DNA of 64,000 bases. It comes from Acidiferrobacterales bacterium. GTDB taxonomy: Bacteria; Pseudomonadota; Gammaproteobacteria; Arenicellales; Poriferihabitantaceae. Under the pieces are notes generated by a model that was not told where the DNA came from, ran no database searches, and saw nothing but the letters and a program-made list of their open reading frames with translations. The position numbers were made by a program, and so were the translations under genes. Positions 12,995 through 61,650 of this stretch are shown piece by piece. Position 1 is the stretch's first letter. Each line of letters opens with the position of its first letter. Location of the stretch: the NCBI GenBank assembly GCA_019633985.1, contig JAHQWE010000005.1, positions 56,258 to 120,257 on the forward strand. The letters run 5' to 3'.

Positions 12995-13984
12995 ATGGGA
13001 ATTTTTACTAAAAAGCCAGCCAAGGAACCTGAAGAACAGGCTCCTGCTGAGACAAACAGCGAGCAAACACGTCGCTATCCTATTAAATCGGGAGAGTCGA
13101 TAGAAAACTATTTGGTAGAAGGGGTCATTGGCGGTGGTGGCTTTAGTATTGTTTATCGCGCCTTCGATGCAACACTCGGAGAGAGTGTTGTACTCAAAGA
13201 ATACTTCCCCAACCTGCTCGCTATTCGCGGCAGTGGCAATGATATCAAACCGATCACTCCGAAAAAGAAATCGGCATTTGATGTTGGGATGCAGCAATTC
13301 TTCGCGGAAGCGCATGCGCTGTCGAAAGTGAGCCATCCAAATGTGATTAACATCATTAACGTATTTCGCAGTAATAACACCGCTTACATGGTATCCAAAC
13401 TGCAGCCAGGGAAAGATTTACGATGGATGATCAAACGCTGTCAGGGGGATCTTGATCAAGGATTTATTCAAAAGGTAATGCCCCCGGTGATTTCCGGCGT
13501 CGACTCTTTGCATCGAGCAGGAATACTGCATCTGGATATCAAACCGGCCAATATCTTACTGCGGACAGTTGGTGGGCCATTGCTGCTGGATTTTGGCGCG
13601 AGCAAAACCATGAGTCGTCAGGAGAGATTTAGCAGCTTCCAGACCCTGACGCCCGGCTTTGCTCCCCCGGAACAGCATCACAAAGCGGAACTTGGCCCGG
13701 GCTCTGATATCTATGCCATTGGCGCGACCATCTACGCCTGTGTCACTGGTCGACCACCACCGACTTCTTTGAAACGGGAGCAGAAGGAGCGAGAGTTGAA
13801 ACTGAAGGGTGCAGAGAAGAATGTATCGAATAGTGTAATTGAAGCACTTAAATGGGCGCTGGAGTTAGAAATGAACAAGCGTCCGCAAAATGTTCGAGAA
13901 TTTGCCAACCTTTTGATGCAGGATTCGGAGTGGGGTTCTTATGACCTGTTTCAGGAAGATCTGATGCGGAACTTCGGGCGCTAA
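12995..13984 (+). CDS. Serine/threonine protein kinase (Hanks type)
   Basis: 'GGGGFSIVYRAFD', 'HLDIKPANILLR', 'DFGASKTMS', 'PGFAPPEQ'. Confidence 0.93.
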   Translation: MGIFTKKPAKEPEEQAPAETNSEQTRRYPIKSGESIENYLVEGVIGGGGFSIVYRAFDATLGESVVLKEYFPNLLAIRGSGNDIKPITPKKKSAFDVGMQQFFAEAHALSKVSHPNVINIINVFRSNNTAYMVSKLQPGKDLRWMIKRCQGDLDQGFIQKVMPPVISGVDSLHRAGILHLDIKPANILLRTVGGPLLLDFGASKTMSRQERFSSFQTLTPGFAPPEQHHKAELGPGSDIYAIGATIYACVTGRPPPTSLKREQKERELKLKGAEKNVSNSVIEALKWALELEMNKRPQNVREFANLLMQDSEWGSYDLFQEDLMRNFGR

Positions 13985-59468: not shown

Positions 59469-60689
59469 CTAACTCCAAGACCAGAAATTGTTACCCTGAT
59501 CCTGATACATTGCTGAAAGCACCATTTGATGTACTTCGGACGCACCATCCACAAGTCTGGCCTGACGGGCATAGCGGTAAATCCATTCCAAGATAGTGTC
59601 TTTAGAATAGCCTCTTGCGCCGCAAAGCTGAATCGCGGTGTCTGCGGCCTGATGTAAGGTATCGGCGACATGCAACTTTGCCATTGAGATCTCCTTCTTT
59701 GCGAAGTCTCCCTGATCCAGTTTCCAGGCAGCATGCATTACCAGCAGACGGCCAATTTGAATCGAGTGGGCAAGTTGACCAAGCTTTAATTGCACAGACT
59801 CTCGATCGGACAATCGCATCCCAAAGCCTTCGCGCTGGGAAACGTAGTCATTGGCAATTTCCATACAGCGCTTCGACAGTCCCAGCCAGCGCATACAATG
59901 TGTCAGGCGCGCAGGCCCCAGACGGATCTGGGTGAGTTTGAGGCCGTCACCTACTTCCATCAGCCGATTTTCGTCAGGGATACGTAAACCATCGAATTTA
60001 AGTTCACAGTGCCCTCCATGCTCTTCCGGGCCCATAATGCCAATCCGTCGAACAATCTCCCAACCCGGTTGGTCTTTGTGAAAGAGAAAAGCGGTTAGAG
60101 CGCGTCTTTTTTCTTGTGGGTCAGGATTGGTCCGGGCAACTAGAATAAAGTGTGCCGCATTTGCGGCACCCGTGATAAACCATTTTCGTCCCTCTACCAC
60201 CCATTCTTTGCCCCGTAGTGTGGCTGTGGTTTGGATCATTGAAGGGTCAGAACCCCCTCCAGGTGCTGGTTCGGTCATCGCGAAAGCGGATTGCACCTCG
60301 CCTTTTATGATGGGTTCTAGCCAGCGATTCTTCTGTTGTTCACTTCCCACCTTCTCTAGCACTCGCATATTGCCATCATCGGGGGCAGCACAATGAAAAG
60401 TAACCGGACCAAATATTGATCGATTCGCTTCTTCATACAGAATCGCCTGGTCGGTAAACGAAAGGCCCATGCCGCCTCGTTGCGTTGATACCTGTGGTGC
60501 CCAAATTCCCGCTTCGCGGGCTAGCTGGCGTTTTTTATTCAACAAATTCTGGTCGATATTTTCATACTGATCAAAATTGTCACTTTCACTTTCCAGCGGC
60601 AATAAATGTTGATCCACGAATTCGCCGACGCGTAGCCGGAGCAATTCGATAGCTTGGTTTGCGGAAAAATGGAGGTTTTCTGGAGACAT
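59469..60689 (-). CDS. Acyl-CoA dehydrogenase
   Basis: 'QSAFAMTEPAPGGGSDPSMIQTTA', 'QLCGARGYSKDTILEWIYRYARQARLVDGASEVH'. Confidence 0.95.
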   Translation of the reverse strand: MSPENLHFSANQAIELLRLRVGEFVDQHLLPLESESDNFDQYENIDQNLLNKKRQLAREAGIWAPQVSTQRGGMGLSFTDQAILYEEANRSIFGPVTFHCAAPDDGNMRVLEKVGSEQQKNRWLEPIIKGEVQSAFAMTEPAPGGGSDPSMIQTTATLRGKEWVVEGRKWFITGAANAAHFILVARTNPDPQEKRRALTAFLFHKDQPGWEIVRRIGIMGPEEHGGHCELKFDGLRIPDENRLMEVGDGLKLTQIRLGPARLTHCMRWLGLSKRCMEIANDYVSQREGFGMRLSDRESVQLKLGQLAHSIQIGRLLVMHAAWKLDQGDFAKKEISMAKLHVADTLHQAADTAIQLCGARGYSKDTILEWIYRYARQARLVDGASEVHQMVLSAMYQDQGNNFWSWS

Positions 60690-60764: not shown

Positions 60765-60779
60765 TGACAATATTTGTCA
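60765..60779. promoter_or_regulatory. Palindromic operator/UAS-like site
   Basis: TGACA-ATATT-TGTCA perfect inverted repeat in a divergent intergenic region. Confidence 0.4.
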
Positions 60780-60934
60780 TGTCGAAATCGTCATTTTTCA
60801 CTTAATTTGCGCATTGATACACTGACCATTTTAGGCGGTCGCAAATTCCGATAAGCATATTTAAAATTTTATTATTGTTTGTTTTCAATTAGATAAGTAT
60901 TTTTATTGTCAAATTTAAATACAGATATAAAAGT

Positions 60935-60950
60935 TGGCACGGCCATTGCT
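60935..60950 (+). promoter_or_regulatory. Sigma-54 (RpoN) -24/-12 promoter
   Basis: TGGCACGGCCATTGCT = TGGCACG-N4-TTGCT; GG and GC elements in correct 12-bp register. Confidence 0.75.
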
Positions 60951-60960
60951 TTAATCAAAC

Positions 60961-61087
60961 CAGAAGCCGCAAGGCTGGGGGTATTGACCAAAACCGACAA
61001 GTTCATAGAGGTGAAAGTGGTACGTTGAAAGGGAAGGTTCGAATCGGTCTTTAGACTGACTGGTAAAGAGCCTTCCCAATTTTTTTT
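60961..61087 (+). ncRNA. Candidate RpoN-dependent sRNA or attenuated leader RNA (~125 nt)
   Basis: Predicted start ~12 nt after the -12 element; ends at hairpin GGGAAGG...TCTTTA...TAAAGA-g-CCTTCCC (61031-61077) with T8 tract 61080-61087; no ORF of note inside. Confidence 0.5.
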
Positions 61088-61207: not shown

Positions 61208-61582
61208 ATGAAAGTTATAAATACAACATTAAATGAAAAAGAGTTAACTCAGCTGGCATTAGCAGCAACTGATGTGGTTCACGCGATGGACCTCGAGCTG
61301 CCTGATTTCACTGAAACCAAAGCACTGTTCATAGCGCTTTTGGATACTCTCGAAGAGCGTTATAAGGATAATGAATTATTATTCGATGCCCGAGCGGCAA
61401 TTTTGAGTCAACCGACTCGCAAGATGGACATCTACATGATTACCCAGAAGCTGGTCAAGCTGGCTCGTGCCGGACGACCTTCCGCAACGGAACGGTTTGC
61501 TTCTCGCCAAGTTCGGCAGTTTTCCGGTGTTGTTCGCCACTCCGCATTTGACACACTGACCGTGGCAGCGAATCAGCACTAG
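61208..61582 (+). CDS. Hypothetical protein (124 aa)
   Basis: ORF MKVINTTLNEKELTQLALAATDVVHAMDLELPDF...; SD-like GGGAG upstream, strong terminator downstream. Confidence 0.65.
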   Translation: MKVINTTLNEKELTQLALAATDVVHAMDLELPDFTETKALFIALLDTLEERYKDNELLFDARAAILSQPTRKMDIYMITQKLVKLARAGRPSATERFASRQVRQFSGVVRHSAFDTLTVAANQH

Positions 61583-61620: not shown

Positions 61621-61650
61621 AAAAACGCCCGCGTATGCGGGCGTTTTTTT
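61621..61650 (+). terminator. Rho-independent terminator
   Basis: AAAAACGCCCGC-GTAT-GCGGGCGTTTTTTT. Confidence 0.92.

Follow-up and report, generated by a model that had tools for sequence, protein, structure and literature searches.

A candidate PilR- and sigma-54-dependent small RNA gene linked to an orphan helical protein gene in an uncultured gammaproteobacterial group

Does the intergenic region between an acyl-CoA dehydrogenase gene (59469-60689, opposite strand) and a gene for a 124-aa protein encode a small RNA (sRNA), a leader of the downstream gene, or no transcript at all? The region lies in a 64,000-nt stretch, hereafter the window, of contig JAHQWE010000005.1 from an Acidiferrobacterales bacterium (GCA_019633985.1), and had been proposed from its letters to hold a sigma-54-dependent sRNA. 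Comparison between genomes supports this reading, as the promoter and the terminator hairpin are conserved in seven copies and rpoN is encoded in the genome (PF04552 at 8e-64). We propose more specifically, with a probability of roughly 0.6, that the locus is a PilR- and sigma-54-dependent sRNA gene with readthrough into the 124-aa gene, and that the RNA acts post-transcriptionally through a conserved core.

Conservation of the promoter and the RNA

The promoter, hairpin and U8 tract were all found where the original prediction had placed them (Table 1), and the transcription start is predicted at about 60961 because the C of the -12 GC lies at 60949. Taken alone, the promoter match is at chance level, with four occurrences of TTGGCACN5TTGC in the 3.72-Mb genome compared with three for a reversed control pattern. 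The case for the RNA therefore rests on the comparison between genomes. Such a frequency is also what would be seen if promoter-like and terminator-like sequences had met by chance and no transcript were made. This explanation is very improbable in view of the seven conserved copies, the compensatory change in the terminator and the shared activator site described below; with promoter, RNA and terminator all kept in seven copies, the candidate lies far beyond chance.

The element is present in four related genomes (G001, G002, G003 and the gammaproteobacterial metagenome-assembled genome FCS_M_Gamma_079), which together with the window hold the seven copies. Within the genus it was found in three of the four other genomes (G001, G002 and G003), while in G004 the neighbouring transglycosylase gene is absent along with both the RNA and the 124-aa gene, so that the whole stretch seems to be missing there. 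Scanning 85,462 species genomes for the promoter and core returned G001-G003 and FCS_M_Gamma_079, and the RNA model gave no credible match among 110 genomes from other genera of the order once weak hits had been inspected. Two of the copies are second, diverged ones in FCS_M_Gamma_079 (41.3 bits) and G002 (35.9 bits), hereafter paralogs, which sit elsewhere, between proline-racemase-like and D-amino-acid-dehydrogenase-like genes (names assigned from sequence). The covariance model R1, built from four of the five main copies, scores 117-142 bits in the main copies and 36-41 bits in the paralogs. Weak hits of the model in other families (L016-L019) were set aside, being similar to coding sequence and having neither the promoter nor the gene. 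The pattern hits L030, L031 and L033-L035 were likewise discounted, as leaders matching by chance or as coding sequence (L034 reaches only 10.9 bits). In other groups, sigma-54-like promoters followed by GTGARAGTGGT were seen in leaders of unrelated genes (e.g., Hsp20-like) and were taken as chance (L030:470-559 and L035 6032-6099, both in reverse-strand numbering, and L034:1894-1981).

The pattern TTGG[C/T]AC-N5-TTGC, which contains the GG-N10-GC of a -24/-12 promoter, is retained in 7/7 copies, some of which were found via a promoter-containing pattern; L002-L004 (DNA similarity) and L009 (RNA model) were found independently of the promoter. Each copy predicts an RNA of 117-127 nt with a hairpin (-21 to -37 kcal/mol) and a T-rich tail. 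Thus, both promoter and hairpin, whose loss in close relatives the original prediction had named as evidence against itself, are kept throughout. The core GAGGTGAAAGTGGTACGTT is the same in the main copies, and the paralogs read GTGGTGAGAGTGGTGCTTG. Between the window and G001, identity is 93% in the 5' part of the RNA and 89% in the terminator, compared with 68% in the gene, 62% in the spacer and 55% upstream; the RNA is better conserved than the downstream gene.

Covariation across relatives had been suggested as a check, and the terminator pairing is kept through sequence change. The terminator arms of the window and G002 share little sequence, and pairing is good in both. In a model-fitted alignment, which is biased towards structure, 91.6% of cells pair and seven pairs are changed on both sides compared with 3.4 in shuffles. 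All seven fall in the terminator hairpin, and sliding the partners abolishes the signal. The predicted transcript folds better than its own dinucleotide shuffles (z -2.8 to -3.8); more than one fold is predicted for its middle domain, where the structure is uncertain. Only G002 and FCS_M_Gamma_079 have another GC-rich hairpin (GGGACC...GGTCCC) behind the RNA terminator (L003:1656-1751 and the same stretch of L036).

The claim that no meaningful open reading frame (ORF) lies within the transcript also held. The longer frame, ending in EVKVVR-stop, undergoes a frameshift in G003, and the core shows no variation even at silent sites; a leader peptide was rejected on these grounds. In the Rfam search suggested with the original prediction, no family passed the gathering thresholds; hits up to E 10 were at chance level and were rejected, the best, narK RNA, matching mainly over the sigma-54 promoter itself. 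The candidate would represent a new sRNA family of known type, so far in one uncultured gammaproteobacterial, genus-level group.

An upstream activator site shared with pilA

Beyond the original prediction, the comparison revealed a PilR-type upstream site in common with pilA, an IHF-like site and the paralogous copies. The palindrome TGACA-N5-TGTCA is present in 5/5 main copies, starting 148-169 bp before the TTGG of the promoter, and both paralogs carry a degenerate form (TGACA-N5-TATCA). The genes further upstream differ, with an acyl-CoA dehydrogenase in the window and a MoxR-like ATPase (name from sequence) in G002, G003 and FCS_M_Gamma_079. Its retention next to different upstream genes marks the palindrome as part of the RNA unit.

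In the genome as a whole, the palindrome is found eight times, compared with three times for a control. Besides the RNA, the sole other copy with a good downstream sigma-54 promoter (TGGCACGTCAATTGC, 176 bp) belongs to the type IV pilin gene pilA, near which a PilR-type activator (Sigma54_activat, Response_reg, HTH_8) and a kinase with a 6TM_PilS domain are encoded. G003 has the same palindrome 179 bp before its pilA sigma-54 promoter, and pilS-pilR are on the same stretch. Within the window's own genome, the RNA and pilA promoters align over the activator site, a shared IHF-like TTCAATTAGNTA and the -24/-12 elements. The IHF-like site of this pilA promoter reads TTCAATTAGTTA, and that of the G001 copy, TATCAATTAGTTA, fits the IHF consensus WATCAANNNNTTR.

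PilR of Pseudomonas aeruginosa reportedly recognises repeated TGTC-type elements, and the palindrome contains such elements. GTCT elements are named as hallmarks in one source (PMC6058289). Collectively, the palindrome, IHF-like site and promoter in common with pilA, the nearby pilS-pilR genes and the TGTC content argue for PilR control. Most likely, PilR and sigma-54 turn on the RNA alongside pilin. Since its promoter architecture looks the same as that of the pilin gene, the RNA is probably produced with pili, and the cell would probably make some of the downstream small protein along with it.

Table 1. Positions in the window of the RNA, its control sites and the downstream gene.
Feature	Position	Strand	Remarks
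Palindromic upstream activator site, proposed PilR site	60765..60779	.	TGACAATATTTGTCA, TGACA-N5-TGTCA
IHF-like site	60884..60895	+	TTCAATTAGATA; between activator site and promoter
Sigma-54 -24/-12 promoter	60934..60949	+	TTGGCACGGCCATTGC; TTGGCAC-N5-TTGC
Candidate small RNA, ~127 nt	60961..61087	+	Start predicted from promoter, end from U tract
5' hairpin of RNA	60965..60976	+	In most single-sequence folds; stem sequences differ
Conserved core	61008..61026	+	GAGGTGAAAGTGGTACGTT; identical in 5 main copies; contains Shine-Dalgarno-like GAGGUGA
Intrinsic terminator, 17-bp hairpin + U8	61031..61087	+	Stem 61031-61077, T8 61080-61087
Gene for 124-aa orphan helical protein	61208..61582	+	Behind RNA in 7/7 copies
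Bidirectional terminator after 124-aa gene	61621..61648	.	

The downstream gene and alternative roles of the RNA

All RNA copies are followed, 77-122 nt on, by a gene for a protein of 116-124 aa. The 124-aa protein of the window has no relative in Pfam, NCBIfam, PADLOC, PHROGs or PDB, and it was found in one of 369 genomes of the class, namely its own. AlphaFold2 models it as a bundle of helices, with confidence over residues 10-90. The fold was rejected as a guide to function: even the best PDB matches exceed an E of 1, and a slight resemblance to the FliS export chaperone cannot be used. Helical proteins of about 110-125 aa (61208-61582; L010, L011, L084, L009) form a family without known relatives that was seen only in this genus and its close relative, where a genome carries several paralogs. 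Three of these protein paralogs (L010, L011 and L084, in G000 and G001) lack the RNA, and thus the protein is not always accompanied by it; every RNA copy seen had the protein gene with it. Right after the stop of the RNA-less L011, AGAGGATGAAGTAGTGGTACGTTAAAG, which closely resembles the RNA core, lies antisense (L080:1460-1545; G001:C15 ~13410-13500, + strand). This sequence might derive from a decayed copy of the RNA or serve for pairing within the 3' untranslated region of that gene.

No sigma-70-like promoter better than shuffles was detected in the spacer between RNA and gene in any copy, which suggests that the 124-aa gene is expressed by readthrough; the simplest source of its mRNA is likely the sigma-54 promoter. 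The same arrangement would result if the RNA were a cis-acting leader or attenuator, i.e., the 5' untranslated region of the 124-aa gene, in which a ligand, a protein or a ribosome controls readthrough of the terminator. The original prediction had offered an attenuator as its alternative, and this stands as a rival in that the RNA always precedes a gene of the 124-aa type, in two genomic settings, and no promoter was detected in the spacer. Evidence for a switch is less consistent across copies. Pairing between part of the leader and the 5' arm of the terminator would gain ~10-15 kcal/mol in G002, FCS_M_Gamma_079 and G003, but only 1-3 kcal/mol in the window and G001, where this antiterminator is weak; in the paralogs it is moderate. 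Similarly, the five main copies may contain a three-codon mini-ORF (GTG-GTA-CGT-stop) behind the Shine-Dalgarno-like GAGGTG of the core and immediately ahead of the terminator, but it is absent in the two paralogs. The terminators are moreover long and strong and have changed in sequence while the core has not, and the protein paralogs that occur without RNA also weigh against a leader. We regard this alternative as rather unlikely; the sRNA and cis-leader readings are compatible and not mutually exclusive.

The order of RNA, terminator and small protein, found together again at the second locus, also resembles type III toxin-antitoxin loci (toxIN), and the RNA might in that case bind or titrate the co-encoded protein. 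However, unlike in toxIN, no tandem RNA repeats were seen, the protein is all-helical without a toxin-family match in Pfam, NCBIfam or PADLOC, and the sigma-54/pilin-type promoter is atypical of such loci. Together with the protein paralogs that lack the RNA, these differences make such a module improbable.

Proposed mechanism and relation to known systems

In the favoured reading of a PilR/sigma-54-driven sRNA, the activator would bind the upstream palindrome, and DNA bent at the IHF-like site would bring it to the sigma-54 polymerase at the promoter. The ~127-nt RNA would then be transcribed and mostly terminated at the hairpin and U8 tract, and the free RNA, which has the intrinsic terminator and U tail expected of an Hfq-dependent trans-acting sRNA, would act post-transcriptionally via the conserved GAGGUGAAAGUGGUACGUU core. 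A minority of transcripts would read through to yield the 124-aa helical protein, and RNA and protein would be co-expressed with the pilus. The core includes GAGGUGA, a complement of the 3' end of 16S rRNA, and could therefore attract ribosomes or base-pair with sequences of the CACCUC type; duplex energies for base-pairing targets were not discriminating. The sequences themselves provide the conserved promoter, activator site, RNA and terminator, the site in common with pilA and the presence of rpoN, pilR and pilS. From these we infer PilR binding, transcription, readthrough and action of the RNA in trans.

Several observations weigh against this mechanism. No shared conserved target with an exact 11-nt complement to the core was found in five genomes, and a cis-acting leader would also explain why the RNA is so strictly linked to the downstream gene. 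The proposed PilR site owes its name solely to being shared with pilA, so another activator could use it, and the paralogs retain only the degenerate palindrome. More tentatively, the PilR-controlled RNA and the co-transcribed orphan protein might form an RNA-protein circuit that adjusts expression during pilus production. This might be the first PilS-PilR-linked sRNA in the literature searched, in which no PilR-controlled sRNA was found.

RpoN-dependent sRNAs include GlmY/GlmZ, Qrr, CrcZ/CrcY and NrsZ, with the regulators GlrR, LuxO, CbrB and NtrC, respectively. Each couples one sigma-54 activator to post-transcriptional control, in quorum sensing, cell-wall precursor, carbon or nitrogen regulation. 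The link between CbrAB and crcZ/crcY is documented (PMC8657755). The candidate resembles these systems in its sigma-54 promoter, distant activator site, small RNA, intrinsic terminator and occurrence in Gammaproteobacteria, but differs from them in having no Rfam match, a pilA-type activator site and an orphan protein gene always downstream, and in being confined to one genus-level group. It would be a small RNA evolving as one unit with a lineage-specific protein gene. If the proposal is correct, the pilus-regulating PilS-PilR system joins the sigma-54 activators with an RpoN-driven sRNA, which raises the question of whether the RNA rises with pilin expression and feeds back on surface behaviour. 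The candidate matches the PilS-PilR/sigma-54 control region of pilA from its own genome in palindrome, IHF-like site and -24/-12 promoter, but an RNA and an orphan gene, rather than pilin, would be placed under that control.
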